Made by a program: the position numbers and the translations under genes. The notes under the pieces were generated by a model. It had not been told where the DNA came from, did not search any database, and saw only the letters and a list, made by a program, of their open reading frames with translations. Below, piece by piece: positions 12,843-54,759 of a DNA stretch of 61,873 nt. This DNA is from Patescibacteria group bacterium (GTDB lineage: Archaea; Nanobdellota; Nanobdellia; Pacearchaeales; GW2011-AR1). Location of the stretch: contig JAHYJW010000004.1 in the NCBI GenBank assembly GCA_019428815.1, positions 1-61,873 of the forward strand, written 5' to 3'. How positions within the stretch are numbered: the stretch's first letter is position 1; each line of letters opens with the position of its first letter.

Positions 12843-14120
12843 TTAGATTCCCATTAAGAGGTTGTTATATATACTAATGATATTCTCTACAAAGTCTGTA
12901 TCTGCACCAGTAGTACAGCCCCAGCCATTATATCCTCTAAGAGCAGCTAACCACCCAGAGTAAGTCCCATACTTAGGGTATCTTTGAACACAATTATGAA
13001 TCATGGTTTTAAAAGAATTTACGTTTCGATAAGGCCAACTCTCATAAATCCCTCCCCCAAACTCATTATATTTTTCTTTAAAAAGAGCTACCCCCGCTTC
13101 AATATTTTTCTCAGGGTTGTTGATTAGGACATTTTTACATTCTTCTCTATTCTTTGGGAGCCCCCATTTACCACAGGCATTAGCAACATTTATCTGGAAT
13201 AAACCATAACAAGCATGTGTAGATGCTGTATTAGACACGCAGCTACTTTCTTGAATCATTAATGCAACTAGAATAAGGGGATCATCTATCCCCCTTTTTG
13301 TTGACTCGCGAACGATCCATTTAGCATAATTTTTACAATTACTATTTGAACCACAGACACAATTTTTGGGGGTATTAAAAGAATTATAAACTTTATTATC
13401 TCTCGCATAAATCAAAGCATTATAAACTAAATCTTCTTTAGATCGAACTTCTTTTTTAGGAAAAATAGAATTAAAAAAGAAAGAAAAATTCCCAAAAAAT
13501 GAAGTTTCTTCTTCATTAATATCAGAACATCCATCTTCAGATTTTTTATAACTATAAGCAACACCTTCCCCATTAGTATTATGAGATGTTATTTCGATTG
13601 CATAGCCTTTTTTCTTATCCACACAATAAACTTCTGTTTCCCCGGGGTTTAATTTGATTACAAAAGGGGGGCTAAATGATGCTTCAAATTCAAAATTCTC
13701 ATCAACAGATGCAGAGCCAATTCTATCATCAAATGTTGTAATAATAGCCCTCTGTCCAGATCTTAGGGGATTATCAGGAGTTACATCTTTTCTAATTTCT
13801 CCTTGAGGGCAATAACATTCAGGTATATCAAAACCACCCATTTCTGTTTTCCCAAATTCAGAAAACCACTGACAAGTATCTTGATAAGATTTTCCCTCGA
13901 ATCTTAAGACTCTTTCTAAATCACAATAATCAGATTCGCTACCTGATAAACAAGCAAGTTCACAAGCAGTAGCCATAGAGTTAACGTTATCTTTACTAAT
14001 AAACGGGTTAATATTACCCCACCCTAAACTAAATCCCAAAATAAGTATAACCAAAATGACTAAACCTAAAATAATTAAGATTATTGCGTTTACACTAAGA
14101 CTTTGACCTCTTTTTAGCAT
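12843..14120 (-). CDS. Pilin-like N-terminus fused to SLT-type lytic transglycosylase domain
   Basis: N-terminus MLKRGQSLSVNAIILIILGLVILVILILGF (class III signal-like); C-terminus LILVALMIQESSCVSNTASTHACYGLFQINVANAC (lysozyme-like fold with catalytic Glu). Confidence 0.82.
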   Translation of the reverse strand: MLKRGQSLSVNAIILIILGLVILVILILGFSLGWGNINPFISKDNVNSMATACELACLSGSESDYCDLERVLRFEGKSYQDTCQWFSEFGKTEMGGFDIPECYCPQGEIRKDVTPDNPLRSGQRAIITTFDDRIGSASVDENFEFEASFSPPFVIKLNPGETEVYCVDKKKGYAIEITSHNTNGEGVAYSYKKSEDGCSDINEEETSFFGNFSFFFNSIFPKKEVRSKEDLVYNALIYARDNKVYNSFNTPKNCVCGSNSNCKNYAKWIVRESTKRGIDDPLILVALMIQESSCVSNTASTHACYGLFQINVANACGKWGLPKNREECKNVLINNPEKNIEAGVALFKEKYNEFGGGIYESWPYRNVNSFKTMIHNCVQRYPKYGTYSGWLAALRGYNGWGCTTGADTDFVENIISIYNNLLMGI

Positions 14121-17255: not shown

Positions 17256-17906
17256 ATGTTAGATAGAAAAGAATCAGAAGCAATAAAAAAAGAATTAATC
17301 AGTCATATTGAAAAAAATTTTCCAGAAGATAAAAAAGATTTTGCAAAAAGTCAGATATTATCTATGGAAGATAAACGACTTGAGGAATTTTTAGAAGAAA
17401 ATGGTATCCGTTTGAATACTGAAAAAAAAGATGATAGGGAGGACTCTTCTTGCATTTTCTGTTTGATTGCTTCAAATAAAATAAGATCCTACCCTCTTAA
17501 AGAAGATGAGAATGCTATTGCAGTACTTGAAATAAATCCCCTATCAAAGGGGCATACAATCATAATTCCAAAAAAGCATATCCCTCTTTCAGAAAAAATT
17601 CCTTCTTCAGTTTCTTCTTTTATAAAAGAGCTTACTGAAAGAATAAAAGATAATCTAAATCCTGAAAGAATAGAGGTTATGTTATCAAACATTGAGGGTC
17701 ATGGAATAATCAATTTAATTCCTGTTTATGGAAAAGAAATAAATAAGGAAAGAAAAAAAGCAGATATAAAAGAATTAGAAGAAGTTAAAGAACTTCTTTC
17801 TAGCTCTCAGAAAGAAAAAGTTATAAAAAAAAGCAAAAAAAAGAAAGTGACTCTTATAAATACAAATAAAGAAAAAAGTATCTGGCTACCAAAGAGAATT
17901 CCTTAA
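17256..17906 (+). CDS. HIT-domain-like protein with degenerate histidine triad
   Basis: SSCIFCLIASNKIRSYPLKEDENAIAVLEINPLSKGHTIIIPKKH; C-terminal HGIINLIP in place of HxHxHxxP. Confidence 0.75.
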   Translation: MLDRKESEAIKKELISHIEKNFPEDKKDFAKSQILSMEDKRLEEFLEENGIRLNTEKKDDREDSSCIFCLIASNKIRSYPLKEDENAIAVLEINPLSKGHTIIIPKKHIPLSEKIPSSVSSFIKELTERIKDNLNPERIEVMLSNIEGHGIINLIPVYGKEINKERKKADIKELEEVKELLSSSQKEKVIKKSKKKKVTLINTNKEKSIWLPKRIP

Positions 17907-18746
17907 AAAACTCCAAAAATTTTCAAATAATCCTAAAAAGATTATAAAAATAAAAATTATAAAGGCTATTAGAAAAACTGGCGAGAAAGCTATTCCTTCT
18001 CTAATTTTTACCCTCTTTTTCTCTTTTTTTATTTTGATTATATCTTCTTTTCTAAGTCCCCCCCAATTTGCTTTGATAAGTCCTCTTTTTAGTTTAACAT
18101 CACGATAAAGCCAGTCTCCTTCTGTTAATTTATTTGTACTAACCGTTTTAACCAAACAAGATTCATCGACTGCCTTGATATAAATATAAAGTTGACATAA
18201 GAATAAGGGGATTAAAAAAAGGATAAAAAGACTTTTTTCAAAAAAACCTAAAAGAATTAAAAAAAAGCTGAACAAAAAAGAAAAATAGACTATTTTTTTA
18301 TTTTTCTTTAATAGATGAAGGAACTCTTTTTTAAAATTATTAAAATTCATAAAACTTAAGAGAATACTAGAAATTAGAGTGTACATTGCACCAATGATAA
18401 AAAAAGAAATTACAAAAAAACCAAAAAATCTCAGATTTTGAAGTAGATTATCTGATATCGGGAGGATTGCTCCTAAAGCAATCATAAGTTTGGCATCTCC
18501 ACCTGCAAAAAACTTACCATAATAAAAAAGATTTCCGATGACAAAGAAGATAGCTAAACCGATTAATCCCTGATAAAATAAAGAGAAGTTATCTGAAAAA
18601 AGACTAAAGAAAAATCTAAATCCTAAAGCAAAGATTATCAAACTAAAGTTTAGCCAATTTGCAATCTCTTTTGTTCTTAAATCTTGGATAGTTGCAAAAA
18701 AAATCCAGATTATTGCTAAAGAAAAAAGGAATATCAAATGTAACAT
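17886..18746 (-). CDS. A24 prepilin/preflagellin peptidase (class III signal peptidase)
   Basis: TIQDLRTKEIANWLN and YGKFFAGGDAKLMIALG catalytic motifs; multi-TM. Confidence 0.85.
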   Translation of the reverse strand: MLHLIFLFSLAIIWIFFATIQDLRTKEIANWLNFSLIIFALGFRFFFSLFSDNFSLFYQGLIGLAIFFVIGNLFYYGKFFAGGDAKLMIALGAILPISDNLLQNLRFFGFFVISFFIIGAMYTLISSILLSFMNFNNFKKEFLHLLKKNKKIVYFSFLFSFFLILLGFFEKSLFILFLIPLFLCQLYIYIKAVDESCLVKTVSTNKLTEGDWLYRDVKLKRGLIKANWGGLRKEDIIKIKKEKKRVKIREGIAFSPVFLIAFIIFIFIIFLGLFENFWSFLRNSLW

Positions 18747-19091: not shown

Positions 19092-19439
19092 TTAAGGGCA
19101 AGTTATTCCGGGACAAGAAGCAATACCATAATGAGTATAATCCCCTTGAGAAAGTTCGTAACAAGTTTTTTCTACAAATTTTACTTCATCTCTATTCTCA
19201 TCTAATAAACCTTCAGCCCTTAATATGCGGTTTAAACCACAATAGTCATACTGATTTCCCATAGAACATGCTAATTGACAATTAGAAACAATCTGGTCTA
19301 CGTTATTTTTCTTAATAAAAGGATTTATTCTCTCCCACCCTAAACTAAATCCTAAAATAAGAATAACCAAAATTACTAAACCCATAATAATTAAAATTAT
19401 TGCGTCTGTACTAAGACCTTGACCTCTTTTATTCTCCAT
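19092..19439 (-). CDS. Pilin-like small protein, N-terminally paralogous to the lytic transglycosylase gene
   Basis: MENKRGQGLSTDAIILIIMGLVILVILILGFSLGWERINPF plus conserved Cys positions. Confidence 0.75.
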   Translation of the reverse strand: MENKRGQGLSTDAIILIIMGLVILVILILGFSLGWERINPFIKKNNVDQIVSNCQLACSMGNQYDYCGLNRILRAEGLLDENRDEVKFVEKTCYELSQGDYTHYGIASCPGITCP

Positions 19440-19501: not shown

Positions 19502-19858
19502 TTAACCCCCATCTAATTCAAGGAAGAAGATTATATAAGAAGAATCCCTTATATCAGAATAAAAAACATAAGGACCATAAATATCACTTTCTATTAAACT
19601 AAAATACCCCCATTGACTATTTTCATAACCATCTATGATTATGTTCTTTATTTGGGTATTATTAAATCCTAAGTTTTGGTATAAAGAAATTTTCTCTTTT
19701 AAAAGGGTCATTTGTTCGATTCTCGAGACAATCTCAAAATTTCCCTTTGACTTATTAATTGAAATTAAAAAACTTATAAGAGTAAGCATACAAACTGTAA
19801 AAACACCAATAACAAGGATGGTTATAGGAACATTGCCTTTTTTTGATTTTATTATCAT
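19502..19858 (-). CDS. Minor pilin-like single-TM protein
   Basis: MIIKSKKGNVPITILVIGVFTVCMLTLISFL; K-G then hydrophobic helix. Confidence 0.6.
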   Translation of the reverse strand: MIIKSKKGNVPITILVIGVFTVCMLTLISFLISINKSKGNFEIVSRIEQMTLLKEKISLYQNLGFNNTQIKNIIIDGYENSQWGYFSLIESDIYGPYVFYSDIRDSSYIIFFLELDGG

Positions 19859-19874: not shown

Positions 19875-20390
19875 TTATGAACAAAAAACTCTCACAAAAT
19901 AAACCCCATTAGAGAGGTAAATAGAGTCTCTATCACATTTATTTGAATCGGAATTTGATAAAACACCGAAAAATGCATTTGCTTTAAGACTATTGGGATA
20001 AGCGTTTCTTGAAAAAATTCCTGCCCAAGTATAAGGATAATTCTCCCCTATAAGGGTTTCATTAAAAATTTCTTTAGCTAAAGAGCCGGTAAATTCATTG
20101 AAATTTTTAGAGTCGCTTAATTCCTTAAAAATTTTTTTTCCTTCAGGGTCTTTTGTTAAAGTATATGCATAAAAAGATTTAGAATTAGGGGTATCCATTA
20201 ATCTTACTTTTGACATTACAGAATAATCTAGCTCTTTCCCCATAAAATCTTGAATGTATCCTCCCGCATTAGAGATAAAGATGAATATTAAAAGAATAGA
20301 GATTATTATAACAGTTGCAATAAACCAAGTTAAGGTTTCTCCTGTTTGTCCGTCTCTTTTAATTTTAAAAAATCTTTTCAAATTAAGCAT
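19875..20390 (-). CDS. Minor pilin-like single-TM protein
   Basis: KIKRDGQTGETLTWFIATVIIISILLIFIFIS. Confidence 0.6.
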   Translation of the reverse strand: MLNLKRFFKIKRDGQTGETLTWFIATVIIISILLIFIFISNAGGYIQDFMGKELDYSVMSKVRLMDTPNSKSFYAYTLTKDPEGKKIFKELSDSKNFNEFTGSLAKEIFNETLIGENYPYTWAGIFSRNAYPNSLKANAFFGVLSNSDSNKCDRDSIYLSNGVYFVRVFCS

Positions 20391-20901
20391 TTTTTTCTGT
20401 TTTTTTGATGATAGATAATATCTCTATCTGGTATTTAGTATTATTTTTATCTAAAGCATAAAAACTTCTTTTAGAACAAACCGGAAGATACTCTCCCTCT
20501 AAATCGCAAAAAGTAGTTAATCCTCTATCCCCCTGTTCAAAAGAGTCTATTTTTTCTCCGATAATATCAAAATTAAAGAGGTCTATCTTTAAATAAAATT
20601 GATCATTTTCTTTCCAATTAGAAAAATCTTCTACACTAAAATTTAAAGAACAAATCTTCTCAAAATTCTCTTTGAATTCCTCGCTAAAATGCCCCCCAGA
20701 GTTTATAAGGGAATCATTCAAATATCCTCCATAAGAAAGGCAGTCAGAAATCTTCACTATCAAAAGTTCTACTTCCATATTTCGAACATCGTAGGGTTTA
20801 TTATAAAAAGAAAGGACCATATAGATTATTCCTGCCGCTACTATAAAAATTATAAAAAACCAATAAACAGAAATTAACTTACCCCCATGTTTATACATCA
20901 T
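20383..20901 (-). CDS. Single-TM protein of pilus-like operon
   Basis: MMYKHGGKLISVYWFFIIFIVAAGIIYMVLSFY; overlaps neighbours. Confidence 0.6.
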   Translation of the reverse strand: MMYKHGGKLISVYWFFIIFIVAAGIIYMVLSFYNKPYDVRNMEVELLIVKISDCLSYGGYLNDSLINSGGHFSEEFKENFEKICSLNFSVEDFSNWKENDQFYLKIDLFNFDIIGEKIDSFEQGDRGLTTFCDLEGEYLPVCSKRSFYALDKNNTKYQIEILSIIKKTEKNA

Positions 20902-21313
20902 TTTTTTTGTCTATTAAAAAAATATAGCCCTTGTTTAAATTTTCAGATTCTGGAGGAGGAGAAATTCTTCTTACGGATACATCATTAAAAAAAGAATAAC
21001 TATACCCCCCTTTTTCTCTAAGTTTTACAGTTACAATGTTATCCTTAATAGTCACTACTCCTTCATTAAGGTCTACCTTTTCTTTTTCAGCTATTTTTAT
21101 TGCATCTTCCATGTTTAAATAAATCTGCATCCCCGGTTCTGCTGCATCAATCATTAAAGCAATTTTCTTGGAGTAAATTTCTTCTAAATTTGCCCCAGAA
21201 CCAGTTTTAGAAAAAACAAAAACAATTAAAAGAGAAATAAAAACAATGTTTAAAATTATAAAGACGGTATCTTCAATTAAAAGTTCTGCCCCTTTCTTTT
21301 TATTTAAGTTCAT
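20891..21313 (-). CDS. Minor pilin-like single-TM protein
   Basis: MNLNKKKGAELLIEDTVFIILNIVFISLLIVFVF. Confidence 0.6.
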   Translation of the reverse strand: MNLNKKKGAELLIEDTVFIILNIVFISLLIVFVFSKTGSGANLEEIYSKKIALMIDAAEPGMQIYLNMEDAIKIAEKEKVDLNEGVVTIKDNIVTVKLREKGGYSYSFFNDVSVRRISPPPESENLNKGYIFLIDKKNDV

Positions 21314-21360: not shown

Positions 21361-22128
21361 TTATCCTGATTTTGAGAGAATGTTATCGCACCCTAAAGAC
21401 GAATAACTTTCAGGGGTAGACTCTAAAATAAGGGGTTTAAGGTACATTGAATCTTCCCAAAACCCAACTATAGGATTATTATGAATACCTGTAATTATAG
21501 AATAATCCTTACTAAAATTAAAGGGGATATGTTCCAACTTGGGAAAGAGTCCTAATTCTATGATAATACCTAAATCATTTTCAGAGTATAAATAATCTAA
21601 ATAAGTTTGTGTAGATGTTTTGGGGGTTTCATTTAAATAATCATAAAGATTTCGGTAGTTTATTACAATTCCGGAATTTTGGATTTTTTCGTCAAATTCA
21701 ATAATAGAACAAACAGCACAGCTAGTTTTACTCGTAAAAATCGTTTCCGAAACATACTTTACTTCTCCTTCTCCAAACATCCACCAACAATCAACCATCT
21801 CTTTTGCAATAGCCTCTAAAATTTCTTTTTTAGGATTCTCCCCCCTAAGATTAATCTTGATAGTTGAAGAAGGATTTGTTTTTTGACATTTTCCTCCACC
21901 AGAGATACAAACAGAGGTGGTAGTACAATCTAAAGGGCCAGAAAAACCTCCAGATTGAGAATTTAAAATAACAGAATTATGGCAAACTTCTTTGAATGTT
22001 TTTCCCCCCAAATTTAACCTTAAAATTAAAAATAAAATTATTATAAAACTGACAATAATAACTATTATAGTCACAAGTTGCTTTGTTGTTAATTCTCCTC
22101 TTTTTGATAAAATTTTTTTAATTCTCAT
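21361..22128 (-). CDS. Minor pilin-like Cys-containing exported protein
   Basis: MRIKKILSKRGELTTKQLVTIIVIIVSFIIILFLILRL. Confidence 0.6.
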   Translation of the reverse strand: MRIKKILSKRGELTTKQLVTIIVIIVSFIIILFLILRLNLGGKTFKEVCHNSVILNSQSGGFSGPLDCTTTSVCISGGGKCQKTNPSSTIKINLRGENPKKEILEAIAKEMVDCWWMFGEGEVKYVSETIFTSKTSCAVCSIIEFDEKIQNSGIVINYRNLYDYLNETPKTSTQTYLDYLYSENDLGIIIELGLFPKLEHIPFNFSKDYSIITGIHNNPIVGFWEDSMYLKPLILESTPESYSSLGCDNILSKSG

Positions 22129-22260: not shown

Positions 22261-22785
22261 TTACCCCCTTTTTTGAATAAGTTTACTTGTTTGATTTATT
22301 AATAATTCTATAGAAGGGGGGGTTATTTCTATTGAATTCTTTATCTTAAATCCATCAACCAGACTTAAACAAATACCATCTGATTCACAGCTGTCATGGG
22401 TTTCTTTTTTACAGATACACAAACATGATTCCCAGCCCATAGTCTCGCAAGTTAAGGGTATAACATTAGTTTGTTCTATAGATTCCCACTTTAACGTCAC
22501 CCAATTAAACAATTTTTTGGAGTAAGATTTAGGCCAAGAATGAATAAACCAATCTGTAGGATTATTAATTATGACTTTATCGTTTCCGTCTTGAATTGCC
22601 CCTAAAAGCTCAAGAAGAGAACCTTCTGCTTGTTGTATTTTAATAGAACTCCTCCTACTTGAATAAAGAGAGAATAATAAATATGCTAGAAATAATATAC
22701 AGATTACAGCTATGATTATTTTAAGAGTCTCTTCTGCGAGTAAAAAACCGTTCTTACTTCTAAGATTATCAATTTTCTTTTTCAT
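22261..22785 (-). CDS. Minor pilin-like protein
   Basis: LRSKNGFLLAEETLKIIIAVICILFLAYLLFSLY. Confidence 0.6.
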   Translation of the reverse strand: MKKKIDNLRSKNGFLLAEETLKIIIAVICILFLAYLLFSLYSSRRSSIKIQQAEGSLLELLGAIQDGNDKVIINNPTDWFIHSWPKSYSKKLFNWVTLKWESIEQTNVIPLTCETMGWESCLCICKKETHDSCESDGICLSLVDGFKIKNSIEITPPSIELLINQTSKLIQKRG

Positions 22786-23221: not shown

Positions 23222-25405
23222 TTAGAGTCCCCTTAGAACAATACTTACCAAAATAAAAAGAGTAAGGGTAGCAAAAAGTGCAGTAAAGAAATAAAGGCTT
23301 ATTGCAGAAATAAAAGTTTTTCCAAGACTATTCATTGTTTTTAATTGATCGTCTCCGGAATCTACAATTACTAAAGTTTTAGTTAAGATGTAGGTTATTT
23401 GAATTAAATATACTCCAACAATGATTTGAAGAAAATAAGGGGGAATCATTTGTGAAACTTCAAATATATCTAAAACGCCTCCCAAACCTCCCATGGCAGA
23501 TCCTGCTGCATCACCACTAAAATCTTCTAACTTTAATTTTGTAAGAATCTCTGTAATCATTGAAGCTAAACCAATAACAACCCCTGCAAGTAAAGGTGCA
23601 AGAAAACTCATGTAGGATTTCATGTCTGAGATTACTTCTGCAAGAAGGTCTCTAAGTCTTGCAGTAATCTTATGAATATTCCGAACATATTCCGAGATAC
23701 TCATTAAAGAGACAGTTGCAATATTCAAGCCCTTTTTCACAGATTCAACAAGAATTTTCATACTTATTGAAATTAAATCAGAAGGATAGTAAATTATTGC
23801 ACCCTTTTTAGTATCAAAAATAGCTTTTTCAACACTCATCCCCCCTTGTCTTATGTTGTAGTCTACCTTTCTAAAGAAATCTTCTGTTTTAAGTCCTTTA
23901 GAAGATTCTGCGGTTTTTCCAAAAACAATTTCTGGGGGAACCCCGTTTCCAATACGATTTCCTAATTGGAATAAAGAATTATTAAACTCTAGTTCTAATT
24001 GTTGGGTATTTTCTCTTTCAATAATTAACTCTTTTGTTTTTTCTTTAAACGCTGTGGAAAAGAAAACTACGATTCCTAATGGAAAAAACATTCCCAAAAT
24101 TAATGCCCCAACACCAAAGGGACCTTTGACACCTGCATTTGTTTCCATAATGCCAAAAAGGCTCCCTTCTCCAATAAATCCTAAACCTAATTCTAAAAAA
24201 GTATAATCTTTTTGAAGCCCCATCATTTCTGGGAAAGGAGTGTACTGAAAGATCAAAGGTAAAATACCTAAAATTATGAGGGGTAATGCTAAGAATAAAG
24301 ATTTAACATAAGGTTTTTTACTTTTATATTTATGATAAAGAGGGTTTTTTTCTAGTAAAGAACTATTACCATGTCCCCCAGGTCTTAAAAATGTCACTAA
24401 ATCAGTTCTGTATAAAACAAGGAGGGGAATTAAAATGTTAAATAAAAGAAAAACGTGTGTCCATCTTATCATTCCCCCGAGCATTGCACTTGCAAGAGGT
24501 AAAAGAACCAGTCCTAAAGTTGGGAGTATAATTCCCAACATGTAAATATTTGTTAAAGGACTTTTAACATCATGAGTAAATTTTAACATTTTTTCATAAA
24601 CCCCATCAAGGACTACTTTCAAAGCCTTTTCTAGAGTTTGAATTCTTCTTGTATCATCCGGTTCATATAAGCTACCCTCAATTAAGTGAAAAGACTCTAT
24701 AAATTCACTAGAATAATCTCTCCAATTTTCGAGATAACTATCTAAACTTTCTTTTATAGAAGAAAATTTACCGACTTGAACATCATAAAAAACTTTTTTT
24801 AAATCCAAAGCGAGAGGATATTGTAGGTGTTGTGACGCAAAGGCTATAGCTCTTTCTAAATTAGGGGTGTGTCTCATATAAACAACAACATAAAGAATTG
24901 CAGAGACCATTTGACTACTTGCTTTCAAGCGCCATTTGTTTGCAATTCTTGCTGGATATGCTTTCATAAAGAAAAAAAGAAAAAAAGAGATAATGACAGT
25001 CATAAAAAAGAACAACAAGGGAAAAGCATCTAAATCCCCCTGAATTAAAACAAAAGAAATAGAAATGAATAATCCTAAAAGAAACACTCCCAAAAAAGAC
25101 ATTACTGACAGAGTTAAAGGTTGCCAAGGTTCTAAATCTAGGTGAGAGATTTCTAAACTTTTTTTAATTTGAACAGTGTCTTTTTCAGAAAAATTCATTT
25201 TTATGATATTACCTAAACTCTTACACCATCTTTCATAACGAGATATAGATGGAATCATCTCTTTCCTAAACTTAGTATATTCCTGACTATAACTTTTAGG
25301 GGACATGGCAAAAGAGGTATTTGTTGTAGAAATCTTAGATTTTATTTTATCTCCATATTTCTTCAAAATATCATCAACATTTTTATCTGAGGTATTCATC
25401 ATCAC
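23222..25405 (-). CDS. Type IV pilus/archaellum platform protein (FlaJ/TadC-like, duplicated)
   Basis: Two multi-TM halves with T2SF-like cores (SFLGVFLLGLF..., GNRIGNGVPPEIVFGKTAES...). Confidence 0.8.
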   Translation of the reverse strand: MMMNTSDKNVDDILKKYGDKIKSKISTTNTSFAMSPKSYSQEYTKFRKEMIPSISRYERWCKSLGNIIKMNFSEKDTVQIKKSLEISHLDLEPWQPLTLSVMSFLGVFLLGLFISISFVLIQGDLDAFPLLFFFMTVIISFFLFFFMKAYPARIANKWRLKASSQMVSAILYVVVYMRHTPNLERAIAFASQHLQYPLALDLKKVFYDVQVGKFSSIKESLDSYLENWRDYSSEFIESFHLIEGSLYEPDDTRRIQTLEKALKVVLDGVYEKMLKFTHDVKSPLTNIYMLGIILPTLGLVLLPLASAMLGGMIRWTHVFLLFNILIPLLVLYRTDLVTFLRPGGHGNSSLLEKNPLYHKYKSKKPYVKSLFLALPLIILGILPLIFQYTPFPEMMGLQKDYTFLELGLGFIGEGSLFGIMETNAGVKGPFGVGALILGMFFPLGIVVFFSTAFKEKTKELIIERENTQQLELEFNNSLFQLGNRIGNGVPPEIVFGKTAESSKGLKTEDFFRKVDYNIRQGGMSVEKAIFDTKKGAIIYYPSDLISISMKILVESVKKGLNIATVSLMSISEYVRNIHKITARLRDLLAEVISDMKSYMSFLAPLLAGVVIGLASMITEILTKLKLEDFSGDAAGSAMGGLGGVLDIFEVSQMIPPYFLQIIVGVYLIQITYILTKTLVIVDSGDDQLKTMNSLGKTFISAISLYFFTALFATLTLFILVSIVLRGL

Positions 25406-25475: not shown

Positions 25476-27788
25476 TTACAATTTCCTTTTTTTAATCTCT
25501 TGATTAAGCCATTTTTGCCATTCTGAAAAAACTCTATCTCCTACCGGCAACCCAATCTCTTGCCTAATTTCATCTGAAATTCTATGGAAAACTTGATTAG
25601 ATAAAGTACTGAATTCTGCTTCTAAAATACGAGGGTTGTTTATTTGATCGGATTTTTTAACAAGTTCTTCCTTTATCCTAGATCTTAATTGAATATTATC
25701 CCAAACTGCATCCCAGTTTCCTGCCCACCCCTTAACGTCTGCAGCAATGTTTTTTATAATCTCCGAATCTCCGTTAATAAGATCCTCTGTTGGTTCAAGT
25801 TGATCTGTTTCAACATTGTATCTAAGAAGGTCTACAAACCCTTTTTCTTCGAGTGGATCCTCCTTCCAATGTTTTCTTACTTCAGATATACTAACTAATC
25901 TCTTAAAAGAATGTAATCCATCTGGGGTTTTGATGGGATTAGCAACAGCGATTATATCTGTAGCCTTAAAACTTGTAGCAGGAACTTCAAGGTCATTAAC
26001 AACTCTATCAAAAACCCCATAAGGACTAGCCCCATGAATAGTTCCCGCAACAACATTTGCTAAAGCTCCGACCCTCATAGCTTCATAAAGTGCTTGGGCT
26101 TCAACACTCCTTACCTCTCCAATTATCAAACAACTATCACCTAATCTTAAGGAGGTTCTAATTCCATCATCTGCAGAAACTTCAGTTGTAGTCTTCAATA
26201 AAGCAGATCTAACCTTCATTCTTAAAACATCATATTTCAGTTTTCTCAAAGATTCAACAGGTAACTCTAAAGAATCTTCTATGATAATAATCCTATATTT
26301 AGGGATTATTTCTAACATTAAACTTCCTAAAAGACTGGTTTTACCACTGGATCTTGTTCCAGCAACAAGCATTGTCCTTGAACCATCAATTAAAAAACTA
26401 AGAAGTCCAGAAGCGAGAGGATTCATCATCTTATTTTTTAAAAAAAGAGGAAAAGTCCAAGGCTCTTCTCTGTGTCTTCTAACAGAATAAGCTAATCCAT
26501 CAGGACTTAAGGGTTCTTGAATAATTGCAATTCTAGCCCTAATTTTACCTATCTCTAGTTGAGTATCCAAAATAGGATTTGATTCATCTAAAGGTCTCCC
26601 TGAGACCAACCGGAATTTTGATGCCCAGGATTCAACATCTTCCTGACTGGGCAAAACATTTGTAATACATTCATCAAATTCTTGATGACGAACAAAAACA
26701 GGAATCATCGAAATTGGAGCATTAAGAGAAATATCCTGTAAGTTTTTATCTTGTAGTAAAACTTCTAAAAGCCCAAAACCAATCGTATGCCTAACTAAAA
26801 TCATAGCCAGTTTATTTAAGTCTAGATAACTAACACGAATTCCTTTTGCCTTTGCAAGGTCTTGTAAAAGATCTTTAGCTATATTAAAAAAAACTTGTCT
26901 TGTTCTCTCGGGGTCTGTAAACTCCTCAGCTTTAGGTTGATGTTCCACCAAAACCCCTCGAGCTAAATTCAGAAGCATGTTATGATCCTCACTTAAAGAA
27001 TTTTCTGGAGGAACTAGGTGATAAAGAAATTTGGGGTCGTTTTTATTTTTTAAAATTGTAACCACAGAAACATCATATTCGTTATTTGAAATTTTATACT
27101 GATCAATCATTTCAGCCTCTTCAGGAAGGTCTGAAACAAGACGAGTAAAAGTAAAATTGGGAATTACATCTGGTTTAAAGAGTTTATAATAAATTTGCCG
27201 ATCTCCTTTTCGATAACCTTCTAGATAAGGTGCAGCATCTCTAAAAAATTTAGATTTTTCAATCATTCCCAGTATTCTCTCTAAGAGATGTAAATAAATA
27301 GAATAATCTAGTCTTGAAGAAACATCCACTTTTTCTATTAAGATTCTATTCTGAATTATTAGTCTTCTTAATTGTGAATAGGCTCCGAAGGGGTCTCTTC
27401 TTAAAAGAATCAAAAACGAGAACATCTCGTTATATCTTTTTGGAAAAAGTTCTTCTTTATTTCTTATTAACTTTTCTCTAGAGAGGATTTTTTCATGCTT
27501 AGAAAGGTAATTATAAATATACGCAATTTCTAGAAGATAGTTAGTTTCATTAGTATCATAATTATAGTTTTTTTGTTGCACAAAAACAACTCTTGAGACA
27601 TTTGGATTTTCTATCAACACCTGGATTGTCCTTTCCATGACTTCATGAGAGTCTGCTATATTTGGAACAAAAGGTGCACCAAGGTAGTTAATATACAAAA
27701 CATCTTCACCACCTTCTCTTTTAACTTCATAAGAATAAATTGGTTTTTCATCTGGATTCTGAACCAAATTTTTTTCTTTCTCAACCAT
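25476..27788 (-). CDS. Type IV pilus/archaellum secretion ATPase (FlaI/GspE family)
   Basis: MLVAGTRSSGKTSLLGSLMLEI, IIEDSLELP, LIIGEVRSVEAQALYEAMRVG, AGTIHG. Confidence 0.9.
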   Translation of the reverse strand: MVEKEKNLVQNPDEKPIYSYEVKREGGEDVLYINYLGAPFVPNIADSHEVMERTIQVLIENPNVSRVVFVQQKNYNYDTNETNYLLEIAYIYNYLSKHEKILSREKLIRNKEELFPKRYNEMFSFLILLRRDPFGAYSQLRRLIIQNRILIEKVDVSSRLDYSIYLHLLERILGMIEKSKFFRDAAPYLEGYRKGDRQIYYKLFKPDVIPNFTFTRLVSDLPEEAEMIDQYKISNNEYDVSVVTILKNKNDPKFLYHLVPPENSLSEDHNMLLNLARGVLVEHQPKAEEFTDPERTRQVFFNIAKDLLQDLAKAKGIRVSYLDLNKLAMILVRHTIGFGLLEVLLQDKNLQDISLNAPISMIPVFVRHQEFDECITNVLPSQEDVESWASKFRLVSGRPLDESNPILDTQLEIGKIRARIAIIQEPLSPDGLAYSVRRHREEPWTFPLFLKNKMMNPLASGLLSFLIDGSRTMLVAGTRSSGKTSLLGSLMLEIIPKYRIIIIEDSLELPVESLRKLKYDVLRMKVRSALLKTTTEVSADDGIRTSLRLGDSCLIIGEVRSVEAQALYEAMRVGALANVVAGTIHGASPYGVFDRVVNDLEVPATSFKATDIIAVANPIKTPDGLHSFKRLVSISEVRKHWKEDPLEEKGFVDLLRYNVETDQLEPTEDLINGDSEIIKNIAADVKGWAGNWDAVWDNIQLRSRIKEELVKKSDQINNPRILEAEFSTLSNQVFHRISDEIRQEIGLPVGDRVFSEWQKWLNQEIKKRKL

Positions 27789-48744: not shown

Positions 48745-51700
48745 TTAGATTATTTCTGTATAAAAAACAACACTTTTTTTCCCATTACCTCCATATTCTC
48801 TTAAACTCGCGGGGATTCGCATTTCATAATCATAGGTTCCGTAGGTCCCTTCTTGTTGAAGGTTGATTTCAGTTACAAAAACAACATCTTCTTTATCTAA
48901 CCCCCCAAAAGATCCATCGGTGTCTTTAGAATAATCCCATAAAATTCCAGTAAGAAAATTACTACTATTAATAGAAATAGTTATAGGAATATTAAGAATT
49001 TCATTATTGAATACTAACAATGTCGTGGTATTTTTAACCTCTCCCTCTTCTAAATAAAGCTCTGAAATCGAATCCTGAAAATTAGACATATTCAAAAATT
49101 CATCTAGTTTAGAAAAATCCAAAGAAGAAACTCCCCCAGAAACATTTCTTCCTAAAGCTTGAAGATTAAACCAATAAATTAGGGAATCAACATTTGTTGC
49201 ATAAATGTTGCCCCCCTCGTTATTAGTCGCAAACCACCTAATAATCTTTGAACCATTTTGATTTTCTAATTCAAAAGTACTCTCAGAGGTTAGTTCTCCA
49301 TAAAAAAAATGCCAACTACCAACAGTAATTGATTTATTTGCAATGTTGTTTTCTTTTGTCACCTCTTCTATTTCACCGTCCGGATCAATAACCACAAATA
49401 AATTTGAAGTTCCCATAATGGCATTCCACAAAATAGAAAGGGTATAGTTTTCTAAAGCCCCAAAGGGAGCTATGAATAAATCTTCACCAAGCTGAACTCC
49501 GTCTATTTGAGGATCTCCTAAAAAAAATCTGACAGTTACATTTGGTACAGTAACGTTAACTAAGTTATAAAGAACGGCACTTAAATTAACAGTTTCGTTT
49601 TCAACAGGGGAATTAGTATCAAAGGTTATTTCTTCTGAACTTACAAAAAGGTCTGGTAAAGTAACATTAAACATCCTTGTTTCTGACCATTCAAAATTTC
49701 CAGCCTGATCCAAACATGTAACATTCCAAAGATGTTCTCCTAAAGAATAATTTCCAAGAATAACCTCTATAGAAGTCCCATTTTCTAGATTTATCTCTGA
49801 GGCATTTAGAATATTATCTACATAGAGTCTACATCTCAAATTTGGAGAAAAGTTGTCTTGAGCACTAAAATTAAAAAATACTGTTCTCAGGGTATTAGTC
49901 TGATTTAAAGGGTAATTTAAAGAAACAATTGGGGGAGTTAAGTCGATAGTAAAATTAAAAGGTTCTGGTGAGAAGGTATTAAAATCTGGGAAAACATCAG
50001 TACATAAAACAGTCCAATTATGCATTCCCTCTAAAATTCCTTCCACAATAAAAGAGTTATTAATATTTGCAACCAACTCTGGAGAAGAAATTGTTTTATT
50101 AAATCCACCATCTAAATAAAGGGAACAACTCGAAAGACCAATTGCATCTTCTGGAAGATAAATAAATTCAATGGTAGAAGAATTTAAATGTCCGTAATTA
50201 ACAGGTTCAAAAAGAGTTACTTTCGGGGGGGCGTAGATAGTAAAATTTCTTTCCCCACTTAGATTTTGGTTCTTCGCCATATCTCTACATCTTACCTGCC
50301 AAGTGTAGTTTCCATCTGATCTTGAAACATTTAATTGATTCAGGCTTCCGTTGGTTATACTTAAATTTTCATAAATTGGGATTTCATTTAATAAAAAATC
50401 ACAACTTAATGGAAAATCCATGTTATCTATTACTCTAAATTGAAAATTAATTTCGTTCCAATCGAGAGTTTCATTTTTTTCGGGGGATATTAAACTAATT
50501 TCTGGGGGTGCAGTATCTATAGTAAATACCCAAGTTTCTGTATGCCCTTCTAAGTCGGTTTTATCTTTAACTGAAACAAACCAAGAGTAGGTTCCATCTT
50601 CTAAGGTGACTGTAAAATTATTCTCTGCGTCGTTTTCAACAAAGGTTTGATTTGTCATATAAGGTTCACCATTAATCAAAAGCGTTGCATTAGATATATC
50701 GTCATTGTCATCAATCACAAAATAAGTAAGGTTTAGTGTAGAAGAATTATGAAAGGAATTATTTGGAGGAGAAATCAGTTCTACAAGGGGTGCAAAAGAC
50801 AGTATAAAGAATCTTGTTTCTGAAACCTGATAGTTCCCTGCAGGATCTTGACATGTAACATTCCAGTTTTTATTTCCTCCTTCTTCAAAATAAACTTCTC
50901 GGGAAGTAAGTGTTGCATTTGTTGCATTAAAAGAATCAACGACAATGCCATTTACATTTATATCACAAAAAAGATTTTCTGCGAGGTTATCTGTGACTGT
51001 ATAATTAAATTCTACTGTTGAAGAGAAAATATTTTCTTGATCTTCTGGAGAATTAAGGGTTATATTAGGTGACAAAGTATCTACATAAAATTTTCTTTGA
51101 GAAGCAGTTCCCACTAAACCCTGACTATCTGTAACATTAACAGTCCAGTTGTAAATTCCATCACTTAAATTTAAAGTAAAATTATTTATCTCCCCGATGG
51201 TTACAGGAGTTTGGTTTGTCATATAAATTTCCCCATTAATAATTAAAGTAGAATTAACAACTAAATTACTTGAATTATTAACTTGATATTCCAAAAAAAA
51301 TGTTGAGGTATTAAACCAAGTATTATTGGGGGTTATAAGAGTTACATAAGGGGGCATTTCTTCTTCAGTTATTGTAACCTTTCTTGTTGTTTCTCCTATT
51401 TCCAAATCAAAAAGAGAATTTGCAACACATCTTAGATTATTAACAGAGGCTAAGTTACCTCTTAAAGTGAAATTAGTATTTATTAATTCTTGACCAATAT
51501 CCCCTAAATTATGAGGATTTGTTTCTCCTTGTGCTAAAATAAGATTTCCCGAAGAAGAAATATTCTGCCACCCTTGCTGTGAGGTGTTATACTGAAGATA
51601 AACATTAGTCTCAGAACAAAAACCAATAGTACATGAAACTGAACAAGTTGCATTAAACTCTTCACTAGTTGAGATATTAATATCTTCTACAGGATAAATT

Positions 51701-54700
51701 AAATCTGTTTCCAAAAATCCTTCGGTGGTGATATTCAAATCAACCCCAGAATCTGGATCAAAGGGATTATCCCAAATATGGATTAAAGTGGTCTCTCTAC
51801 TAGGATTTCCGTCGGCATTGTAAGCATTTACAAGAAGCATTAAACGATCTTCAGGATTTAAATAAAGGTCTTCGGTTATACAATCTGAAACAGTTTCAGA
51901 AGTATATGCAGAAACAATTTTTCCGCCTGTTCCGTCGTTACCATAAGAACAAATCAGGGTATCTTCGGAAGAGTTAGTTACATAAAGTTTCCAAGTTAAT
52001 CTATATCTATCTATATTAGCTGTGTTTTGGAAAAGAGAGTGAAATGTTACAGGGCTACTTGCATGTATAATCGCACCATTATGGCCCATGTAATAAGAAG
52101 TAGCTTTAACAAGATTAAGAAGTGTCCCGGAATAAGAACTAAAACTTGCAGAATTTGAAGTACCATCTTTAGCACCACTAAGAATTATTTCAGCAAGGGT
52201 ATTTCCCGTAAAATTTTGAGTAAATGTTTCATAAAAAGTTTGGGGAATCATTTCCCGCGAGATATTTATATTAACTATCCAACTCTCGCTCCAACCTATC
52301 AAACCTCCAGCATCAGTACAAGAAACACTCCAGTTATAGGTTCCATTTGAAGCGTAAAGATCAAAGAACAAGGGAGTATCTTTAAAGATTATATAATCTG
52401 TTTGTTTAAGTTCGTCATTTAAGTAAATAGAACAATTTTGAATTGGAGATTCATCTGAAACGTTATATTGAAAAGTTAAGTTGAAATCATTAGTAATTGT
52501 AGATCCATTAGACGGAGAGATTAAATTAACAACTGGCTCTGTAGTATCAAAAGAAAAAGTTCGGTTTGAAAAAGAAAATTCACATCCATTAAAATCGTCA
52601 CAACATTGTATATTCCACAAGTAATTTCCCTGTTGAGAATAAGTTTTATTAAAATAGTTATATTCCCCATTTAGGATTAAGGTTTGATTGGTTTTATTCA
52701 TATGCCAATTTCCTGTAGAATTATCCCAAAGACTACAATTTAGAAAGTTGTCTGAAGAAAGAGGAGTATAATTAAAGATAACATCATAAGAATTTAAAAT
52801 TGCTTGATGAAATGGGGAATTTAAGGTCACAGAAAGATTCCCTAATTCCGGTACTTCATAACTCACATTAAAGAATAAAACGTCAAAAGACCAGGTTCTT
52901 GTTTGCCTGTTATTTGCACTATAAGCTTGAGTTCTTGCCATCGCTCTGGCTCCTGTTGATCCAAAAAAATTAGAACACTGCCAATTAAAATCAGATGTTA
53001 CGTTAATACATTCAAATGAGGTGGGTTCAGAGACATAACAACTTGCAAGAGTATTGCTCGACCAGGTTGTTCCACTATCATTACTAACATCTACATAACA
53101 AGTACTCTCTCCGTCCGGAGCTCCCCAGAACTTATAACAAATTTCAACACTGGTAATGGTTTCACAATCTGTAATCCCGGAATTATAAGAGGCTATTTTT
53201 ATTCCCCCATATTCTCGCGTATTACCAAAACGATAAGATTGGGCGGTTTCGTAATTTGAATCATCACAGCTTACTCTATCCCCTGAAGAAGAACATGAAG
53301 AAGGATAAAATCCCTCACAGTTTAAATCAAAGGTATCCCTATTACCTTGTAAACTCTGTCGTGAACATTCTTGAGCTCTAAGTTCAACGCTTCCCCCAGG
53401 ATATGCGAGAGGGTCAACTATGTAATCAAATTCTAAGGTACCCCCTATAATCTTTAAATCAAAACCATCTTGACTAGAGTCTAAACCAAATAAATAAATT
53501 GAATTTGGGCTATGCTCAGAGATCTCGGTTATCTCTCCTACGATATCTTCCCCACCTAATTCATAAACCTTAATTTGAGGATCTCCAGAGATTATCCTTG
53601 GATAAAATTTAATGTAATTCAAAAAAGATAAATTTTGTTCAAAGATAACTCTCACATATTCTCCATCATTTATGGGGGGGCTCCAGATACCATCTAAGTT
53701 TTTAACTTCCTCATAGATATTTGAAATAAAATTTTTTTCTGAATCTAAATGTTCAGCACTAGCAACCTCAATTATAATCTCAAAGGTTTGGGTTGATAAT
53801 TGTGGGATAACCCATTCAAGATAATCGTAGAACCCGTCCCCATCTTTATCTTGCAAATTAAAACTATCAATAAAAGAATCTTCTTCAACCCAGAAGATTT
53901 TTATTCTAGAGGGATCCCTAATCTTAAAAGAATTTTCTAAAGAGGTAAAAACTAAAACATCTTCGTATAAAGTACTACTTGGACTAGTTGCAGTAATCAT
54001 CTTACCATTAGGAATTTTCTTTTCTTTAGAATAGGGGGCGGGAGTCTCATAAGTGATCCAATATTCTGCGCTAAGATTATCTACATCAAAGGTTACTTGG
54101 ATTTTTTTATTTTCAGAAAAATTTTTCTCTCCTAAAATGTTTAGCCAAGAAAAAAGGTTTTTTATAAAATTTTTTTCTCCTTCAGGGGAGATTACTTCTT
54201 CTTTCATATAAATCTCAAGTTCTTCAGTTTGATTATACAAAATCTTATTTACAAGAATCTTGTCAGATTCTAGGGGGATAAAAAAAGAGAAATTTCCTAA
54301 AAAACTAGGAAACACCTCCTCATTCCAGGATACCGGCTCATCTAGTTTAGTTTTATAATCTAAGGGAGAATTCTGTTCTAAGATAAGGTTACAGGAATTG
54401 TTACAACCTCCTGTTAAAAAAGAACTTTCTTCTTCAATTATTTTTTCCCTAACAGAAAGATACAAATCTTCTCTGCCTTTAGAAGTTTGTAAAGTGAGGG
54501 TATAATTACCTATTTCATTTAAAGGAAAAATAAGAATCTCACTTGAACCTTCTTTTAGATAAGTTGAAGAGGGGGTTTTAACTCTTAAGATAAAATCACC
54601 CTGATCTCTTAAATCTAAACGAAAAAAATCATCAAGATTATAATAAAGGACTGAACCTGCTGAAAAAATCGAAAGATTATTTAAAAGAATTATAAAACAG

Positions 54701-54759
54701 AATAAAAAAAAGACAGATAATGCTAATATCCCCCGTTTGATTAACCTCTTTTTATTCAT
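48745..54759 (-). CDS. Giant secreted protein (2004 aa) with about eight Ig-like modules, CARDB-like domain and shared C-terminal domain
   Basis: N-terminal signal; repeated P.V.L.SP.n......W.V.C.D..G modules; PDLFVSSEEITFDTNSPVENETVNLSA; GSWHFFYGELTSESTFEL...GNIYATNVDSLIYW. Confidence 0.85.
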   Translation of the reverse strand: MNKKRLIKRGILALSVFFLFCFIILLNNLSIFSAGSVLYYNLDDFFRLDLRDQGDFILRVKTPSSTYLKEGSSEILIFPLNEIGNYTLTLQTSKGREDLYLSVREKIIEEESSFLTGGCNNSCNLILEQNSPLDYKTKLDEPVSWNEEVFPSFLGNFSFFIPLESDKILVNKILYNQTEELEIYMKEEVISPEGEKNFIKNLFSWLNILGEKNFSENKKIQVTFDVDNLSAEYWITYETPAPYSKEKKIPNGKMITATSPSSTLYEDVLVFTSLENSFKIRDPSRIKIFWVEEDSFIDSFNLQDKDGDGFYDYLEWVIPQLSTQTFEIIIEVASAEHLDSEKNFISNIYEEVKNLDGIWSPPINDGEYVRVIFEQNLSFLNYIKFYPRIISGDPQIKVYELGGEDIVGEITEISEHSPNSIYLFGLDSSQDGFDLKIIGGTLEFDYIVDPLAYPGGSVELRAQECSRQSLQGNRDTFDLNCEGFYPSSCSSSGDRVSCDDSNYETAQSYRFGNTREYGGIKIASYNSGITDCETITSVEICYKFWGAPDGESTCYVDVSNDSGTTWSSNTLASCYVSEPTSFECINVTSDFNWQCSNFFGSTGARAMARTQAYSANNRQTRTWSFDVLFFNVSYEVPELGNLSVTLNSPFHQAILNSYDVIFNYTPLSSDNFLNCSLWDNSTGNWHMNKTNQTLILNGEYNYFNKTYSQQGNYLWNIQCCDDFNGCEFSFSNRTFSFDTTEPVVNLISPSNGSTITNDFNLTFQYNVSDESPIQNCSIYLNDELKQTDYIIFKDTPLFFDLYASNGTYNWSVSCTDAGGLIGWSESWIVNINISREMIPQTFYETFTQNFTGNTLAEIILSGAKDGTSNSASFSSYSGTLLNLVKATSYYMGHNGAIIHASSPVTFHSLFQNTANIDRYRLTWKLYVTNSSEDTLICSYGNDGTGGKIVSAYTSETVSDCITEDLYLNPEDRLMLLVNAYNADGNPSRETTLIHIWDNPFDPDSGVDLNITTEGFLETDLIYPVEDINISTSEEFNATCSVSCTIGFCSETNVYLQYNTSQQGWQNISSSGNLILAQGETNPHNLGDIGQELINTNFTLRGNLASVNNLRCVANSLFDLEIGETTRKVTITEEEMPPYVTLITPNNTWFNTSTFFLEYQVNNSSNLVVNSTLIINGEIYMTNQTPVTIGEINNFTLNLSDGIYNWTVNVTDSQGLVGTASQRKFYVDTLSPNITLNSPEDQENIFSSTVEFNYTVTDNLAENLFCDINVNGIVVDSFNATNATLTSREVYFEEGGNKNWNVTCQDPAGNYQVSETRFFILSFAPLVELISPPNNSFHNSSTLNLTYFVIDDNDDISNATLLINGEPYMTNQTFVENDAENNFTVTLEDGTYSWFVSVKDKTDLEGHTETWVFTIDTAPPEISLISPEKNETLDWNEINFQFRVIDNMDFPLSCDFLLNEIPIYENLSITNGSLNQLNVSRSDGNYTWQVRCRDMAKNQNLSGERNFTIYAPPKVTLFEPVNYGHLNSSTIEFIYLPEDAIGLSSCSLYLDGGFNKTISSPELVANINNSFIVEGILEGMHNWTVLCTDVFPDFNTFSPEPFNFTIDLTPPIVSLNYPLNQTNTLRTVFFNFSAQDNFSPNLRCRLYVDNILNASEINLENGTSIEVILGNYSLGEHLWNVTCLDQAGNFEWSETRMFNVTLPDLFVSSEEITFDTNSPVENETVNLSAVLYNLVNVTVPNVTVRFFLGDPQIDGVQLGEDLFIAPFGALENYTLSILWNAIMGTSNLFVVIDPDGEIEEVTKENNIANKSITVGSWHFFYGELTSESTFELENQNGSKIIRWFATNNEGGNIYATNVDSLIYWFNLQALGRNVSGGVSSLDFSKLDEFLNMSNFQDSISELYLEEGEVKNTTTLLVFNNEILNIPITISINSSNFLTGILWDYSKDTDGSFGGLDKEDVVFVTEINLQQEGTYGTYDYEMRIPASLREYGGNGKKSVVFYTEII

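Follow-up and report, generated by a model that had tools for sequence, protein, structure and literature searches.

A probable modular pilin gene beside a type IV filament locus

The window, by which we mean the whole stretch of 61,873 nucleotides that was analysed, contains a type IV filament locus on its minus strand, in which a gene for a T2SSE-type assembly ATPase (25476–27788, Pfam E 4e-13) is followed by those for a membrane platform (23222–25405), a series of pilins and a FlaK-like prepilin peptidase (17886–18746, Peptidase_A24, Pfam E 1.4e-11). The pilins, which fall into families that we named A to G for this analysis, are all encoded on the same strand in the order G (22261–22785, with a typical G/FLLAE prepilin start), F (21361–22128), E (20891–21313), D (20383–20901), C (19875–20390), B (19502–19858) and A (19092–19439). 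The arrangement platform-G-F-E-D-C-B-A-peptidase is the commonest in related genomes, most of which are fragmented metagenome-assembled genomes, and is identical in 33 of the 74 loci that have a platform and at least five pilin families. A Pfam search gave no match for the platform, although 169 of the order's 180 genomes have one; 54/56 relatives have the ATPase, and its matches to the NCBIfam models for the archaellum ATPase FlaI and for TadA-like proteins both stay below the cut-off. The original prediction had placed a prepilin peptidase and pilus ATPase and platform genes near the gene described below, and these matches bear it out.

Just beyond the end of this locus, at 12843–14120 on the minus strand, lies an open reading frame that runs from ATG to stop with no internal stops and encodes a protein of 425 amino acids, here annotated as a modular pilin with a lytic transglycosylase (LT) domain. 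It begins MLKRG/QSLSVNAIILIILGLVILVILILGF, and its residues 1–104 comprise a class III signal (KRG/Q), a hydrophobic helix at residues 10–32 and a Cys-rich module resembling pilin A; six cysteines lie within residues 53–104. An AlphaFold2 model (mean pLDDT 71.9, pTM 0.52) is confident for the helix and the C-terminal domain only, with a β domain at about residues 135–193 predicted at low confidence. The C-terminal domain, an SLT (GH23-like) LT domain with a pLDDT mostly around 90, spans residues ∼250–425; its profile relatives align over residues 250–423, and the aligned stretch used here for the domain is 12846–13370 of the minus strand. Pfam recognises SLT (PF01464) at residues 274–360 with an E value of 7.8e-10 and 38.8 bits (cut-off 21.3). 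Residue 291 (MIQE291SSC) is the presumed catalytic Glu, and the E-S motif is present. By profile search the nearest solved structures are MltC (E 7.8e-7), MltE (E 2e-4) and EtgA (E 1.5e-3), in which the catalytic Glu is aligned, together with goose lysozyme; in Foldseek the two best PDB matches are both Pseudomonas Slt, at a weak E of 0.055. MltC, MltE and EtgA act on the wall of the bacterium that produces them, unlike the role that we propose below.

Judged by its sequence, the protein has the makings of a modular type IV pilin: a class III signal with an α1 helix, an extra domain behind the pilin module (425 residues against a median of 145.5 for the pilin A family) and the genes of the machine nearby. 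The class III-like prepilin N-terminus, the Cys-rich segment after it and the SLT domain with its Glu retained had all been predicted and all stand. In the further description of a pilin-like stem, ‘stem’ is perhaps too strong a word, as shaft, tip and membrane-anchored display are not distinguishable.

The first ∼100 residues copy those of pilin A, a 115-residue protein with the start MENKRG/QGLSTDAIILIIMGLVILVILILGF: the two are 66% identical over 76 residues (residues 3–78), and the genes share 77% of nucleotides over 199 bases. Pilin A thus seems to be the parent of the N-terminal module: its gene was apparently duplicated locally, and the copy then captured an SLT cassette. The fusion gene adjoins RadA, and between it and the pilin cluster lie RadA, an RPA-like OB-fold gene and a Holliday-junction (Hjc-like) nuclease, so that the contig is archaeal. 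LT domains are common in phages, and we considered whether the domain could be a lysozyme from a virus or mobile element, or could come from bacterial sequence contaminating the bin. However, the domain is fused to a duplicated resident pilin among archaeal housekeeping neighbours, it has no relative in 2.9 million viral contigs and its lineage is almost exclusively confined to archaeal records, and we rejected both origins as extremely improbable. The relatives are indeed found in archaea-titled records for 48 of 49 loci (84,980 species searched), mostly in DPANN phyla with titles such as Pacearchaeota, Woesearchaeota, Nanoarchaeota and Aenigmatarchaeota, which makes the source a DPANN archaeon, in all likelihood a Pacearchaeota-like one. 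A record titled Candidatus Omnitrophota bacterium (L267) is a short contig, in a bacterial bin, carrying a piece of a giant DPANN protein with an SLT domain, and is probably a binning error.

Several other genes of these genomes are worth recording. LT genes adjoin RadA in the same position at L086:8164–9552, where the protein has a LysM domain (E 1.3e-10), and at L092:6125–7069. Where the locus ends, RadA has an LT gene as its neighbour in four genomes (G005, G088, G089 and G096), the one checked example carrying LysM. In G041, RadA (816 aa, L025:1451–3901) is interrupted by an intein that contains a LAGLIDADG domain. The source genome has a second, unrelated SLT gene (G000:C9:40746–41033; L109:12636–13343, minus strand), whose 235-residue product looks secreted, matches Pfam at E 2.3e-11 and keeps an ESGG motif. 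The window also encodes, at 48745–54759 on the minus strand, a secreted-looking protein of 2004 residues with Ig-like and CARDB domains, possibly a surface adhesin.

Hydrolase domains on pilins of related archaea

The fusion is not isolated. In this DPANN order, 18 genomes have peptidoglycan-hydrolase domains joined to pilins of the locus described above, the carriers being pilins A, B, C, D, E and G, and the conservation next to pilus loci that had been suggested as a check is thus seen for three enzymes, SLT, amidase and glucosaminidase. SLT domains of two lineages are carried by five pilin families (A, B, D, E and G). Lineage A sits on a pilin A paralogue in the source genome and in a nanoarchaeote (L287), on pilin B in G177 and G178, inside pilin D in G019 and G110, behind pilin E in G160 and G126 and behind pilin G in G041; in G012 it occurs on a 253-residue open reading frame that immediately follows the platform and has an N-terminus like that of a pilin. 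Lineage B lies behind pilin G in G045, G047, G048, G050 and G039. Amidase_2 domains are inserted in pilin D in G160 (E 3e-25) and G157 (E 2.6e-23) and joined to pilin C in G165, glucosaminidase domains follow pilin G in G049 (E 6.3e-22) and G037 (E 3.4e-13), and for pilin F no hydrolase graft was seen. Grafts occur in only ∼10% of the genomes examined, and the pilus is therefore not dependent on the hydrolase.

The position of SLT genes within these genomes argues against a chance association. Of 81 non-giant SLT open reading frames from 200 genomes, merged by hand, at least 14 lie in the pilus locus against ∼1.4 expected for a 12 kb locus in a 700 kb genome (P ∼1e-10), 14 being a lower bound because some of the 81 were inspected only within 1.5 kb. 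The excess persists under the harsher assumption of 25 kb in 400 kb (P 5e-4).

The choice of carrier bears on whether the pilin N-terminus could simply be a membrane anchor or sorting signal, leaving the enzyme on the surface or shed, where it would scavenge amino acids and sugars from wall debris. Feeding on debris has been proposed for Pacearchaeota (PMC11537232), and some LT genes of the order encode plain secreted enzymes, among them the second SLT gene of the source genome and the LysM-carrying ones beside RadA. However, a random anchor is not expected to favour the pilins of one machine, and the grafts are spread over five or six pilin families, all from a single locus. Moreover, the insertions inside pilin D leave both ends of the pilin intact: in the G160 model, strands of the pilin D sheet flank the amidase insert on both sides (residues 116–143 and 334–354), so the pilin appears to have been kept whole, although this model is too weak for its Foldseek search to be informative. 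We therefore regard the anchor explanation as unlikely.

A second question is whether the grafted domains are still enzymes. An SLT domain turned into a non-catalytic glycan-binding module would make the protein an adhesin, like a lectin on a pilin, and the modules of bacterial modular pilins are mostly binding ones (PMC8179133). Losses of the catalytic Glu do occur, in four other SLT-like proteins and in a degenerate pilin A-SLT paralogue of 388 residues that adjoins an intact one in L287, and because some members of the lineage lack it binding-only roles exist. Against an adhesin at this position, the column holds Glu in all 14 pilin-borne and all 17 giant-borne SLT domains of the lineage, three zinc-ligand motifs can be read in the pilin-borne Amidase_2 sequences and the Glu in the glucosaminidases. 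A binding role for the 425-residue protein is thus improbable.

The degenerate paralogue belongs to three tandem pilin A-type proteins (L287:1473–6757, Nanoarchaeota RA.bin88), of which one has an intact SLT domain (355 aa), another the SLT domain without Glu and the remaining one, of 975 residues, a Peptidase_M64 domain (E 6.2e-9). In Archaeon GW2011_AR15 a gene in a pilus-like neighbourhood (L288:8573–11284) encodes 903 residues with an SLT-like region, recognised by our own profile and not by Pfam, and a GH25 lysozyme domain (E 1e-48). Other pilins of unusual size (in L166, L187, L193, L174, L168, L169 and others) gave no known domain; at L168:6516–10094 (G149) pilins E and B of one locus apparently have the same C-terminal domain, without a Pfam match, which is possibly a shared cassette.

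Cassettes shared with giant surface proteins

Giant surface proteins of DPANN archaea also carry, at their C-terminal ends, SLT cassettes of the same lineage as the pilin-borne ones. In a tree of lineage A the pilin-borne and giant-borne domains interleave, with at least nine changes of carrier; the giant of L248, for example, groups with the pilus open reading frame of L023 (support 96/83). Resolution is poor, 15 of the 50 branches being starred, so that we claim only the interleaving of carriers and not the exact donors. The giants swap the enzyme as well, with SLT in many and glucosaminidase in G043 and G034. They are encoded in a conserved two-gene operon (L026–L032, L243–L258) in which a gene for a ∼610-residue protein, with the class III-like start GQxTIFIIxAxLIV and no Pfam match, precedes that for the giant.

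We considered whether the 425-residue protein could itself be a giant murein transglycosylase like fam00969, which we define as an SLT domain on a body of ∼1,700–2,500 residues beside the ∼610-residue partner gene, and rejected this: it has no giant body, and only the SLT cassette is common to both. The giant of the source genome (G000:C7; L108:3779–9736, plus strand) is 1985 residues long and is without the C-terminal SLT domain of several sister species. Its last ∼150 residues are a different stretch with the pattern YCFHSILNIYTNAG...GSHAVIFV and no Pfam match, and an NlpC/P60-like identity for it was rejected for want of Pfam support. The giants of both the source genome and G012 are without SLT, but G019 has both a pilin graft and a giant SLT, and we do not claim that the graft replaces the SLT domain of the giant. 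There is no significant exclusion between the two, owing to G019 and to the low base rate of giant SLT domains, roughly counted at about one fifth of genomes.

Earlier papers describe giant LT proteins and put forward the idea of an encounter between such archaea and the walls of bacteria (Castelle 2021, PMC8204110; Vigneron 2022, PMC9723730; PMC10936187). The DPANN giants described in parts of these reports (PMC8204110, PMC9723730) come from the same archaeal group, have an SLT-type domain and are proposed to target bacterial walls. They reach 3,000 residues in one account of them (PMC8204110), in contrast to the 425-residue pilin that carries the domain studied here, and the giants of our genomes stand in a separate operon. 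Passages of the two papers (PMC8204110, PMC9723730) make no mention of pilin grafts, amidases or glucosaminidases.

A putative filament against bacterial walls

If the enzyme worked on the envelope of its own cell, the archaeon should make a substrate for it. In bacteria, secretion systems and pili are equipped with dedicated LTs that act on the wall of the producing cell (FlgJ, EtgA, VirB1), and the profile of the SLT domain also matches EtgA. An archaeal counterpart might act on the envelope of the archaeon itself, for instance for passage of the filament, or on a glycan of an archaeal host, and the hosts of cultivated DPANN are, as part of one account has it, archaea on which they live (PMC11291902). 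However, a penicillin-binding protein transpeptidase was found in 0/56 relatives and a Mur ligase in 1/56 and not in the source genome, with positive controls for both, and ∼90% of the genomes of the order are without a graft. The role of a dedicated own-wall LT, which presupposes a producer with peptidoglycan, was rejected on the first two of these counts, and the earlier claim that the natural target is not a bacterial-type wall of the cell's own agrees with them.

LTs, AmpD-like amidases and FlgJ-like glucosaminidases belong to separate enzyme families, and the known substrate that they have in common is peptidoglycan containing MurNAc; to our knowledge peptidoglycan is the only substrate that SLT, Amidase_2 and glucosaminidase domains share. 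This makes it very unlikely that the enzyme acts on the envelope of the archaeon itself or on a glycan of an archaeal host. It also supplies the main argument for bacterial walls as the target, namely that three unrelated hydrolase folds converge on one filament in cells without peptidoglycan. That unrelated hydrolases were captured repeatedly by pilins from a single locus strongly indicates, on comparative grounds, that the filament meets peptidoglycan, and the original prediction of a pilus-tethered wall hydrolase aimed at bacteria is supported comparatively by the grafts of three folds in 18 genomes.

We consider it probable, from these sequence comparisons, that the protein is a modular pilin of a DPANN type IV filament, composed of a duplicated pilin A and a DPANN-specific GH23-type LT cassette, and displayed against bacterial peptidoglycan. 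The archaeal hosts of cultivated DPANN and the small share of genomes with a graft weigh against it. In such a model one copy of pilin A would have arisen by duplication within the genome and gained an SLT cassette at its C-terminal side. Cleavage by the prepilin peptidase after KRG would remove the leader; the hydrophobic helix would then insert into the filament or remain in the membrane, with the SLT domain exposed on the surface of the cell or on the filament. On contact with a bacterium this domain would cut the peptidoglycan and open the wall locally for attachment, feeding or killing. The repeated attachment of the same and of unrelated wall-cutting enzymes suggests a pilus for breaching bacterial partners or prey.

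A stronger reading, which we hold tentatively and put somewhat short of an even chance, is that the filament is an exchangeable carrier of bacterial-wall-breaching enzymes (two SLT lineages, an AmpD-like amidase and a FlgJ-like glucosaminidase) whose cassettes move between the pilins and the giant, a PilY1-like tip, for attacking or settling on bacteria. That the giant could be a tip protein of the same filament is speculation; it is put forward because giant and pilins have cassettes in common, just as modules are common to pilins and the tip protein PilY1 in the bacterial work on modular pilins (PMC8179133).

Each half of the combination is known. Modular pilins have been described for PilB and PilC of Streptococcus sanguinis, with 264 architectures reported (Raynaud 2021, PMC8179133), and like the protein studied here they have a class III signal and an α1 helix followed by a functional module that is foreign to pilins. 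The bacterial modules are mostly adhesive, in contrast to a wall hydrolase whose cassette hops between the subunits of one locus, and the main text of that study mentions neither archaea nor peptidoglycan nor lysozyme. Archaeal peptidoglycan hydrolases that kill bacteria have likewise been reported (Strock 2025, PMC12352652); they too are bacterial-wall hydrolases encoded by archaea without peptidoglycan and are rich in Nanoarchaeota, but they are modular hydrolases, and pilins are not mentioned in the main text. A bacterial likeness in action is the Kil system of Myxococcus, a Tad-like apparatus and a machine of the type IV filament family, which has been linked to the killing of prey on contact, with local holes in the prey peptidoglycan (Seef 2021, PMC8460266). 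Kil belongs to a bacterial predator, and in the relevant part of that report pilins are not described as hydrolase carriers. The combination of the two in archaea appears to be the new part, as we found no report of archaeal pilin-hydrolase fusions in a literature search that covered mainly freely available journal papers.

That uncultured Pacearchaeota and Woesearchaeota may live on bacteria has so far been argued from giant LT proteins. A wall hydrolase that forms part of pilus subunits would point to a concrete machine, to a substrate and to testable proteins. Modular pilins would thereby be known from archaea too and include enzymatic weapons, and they would be a source of small wall enzymes that act on contact. 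On the stronger reading given above, the filament would be an archaeal counterpart of the effector-loaded spikes of type VI secretion systems or of the tail-tip lysozymes of phages.
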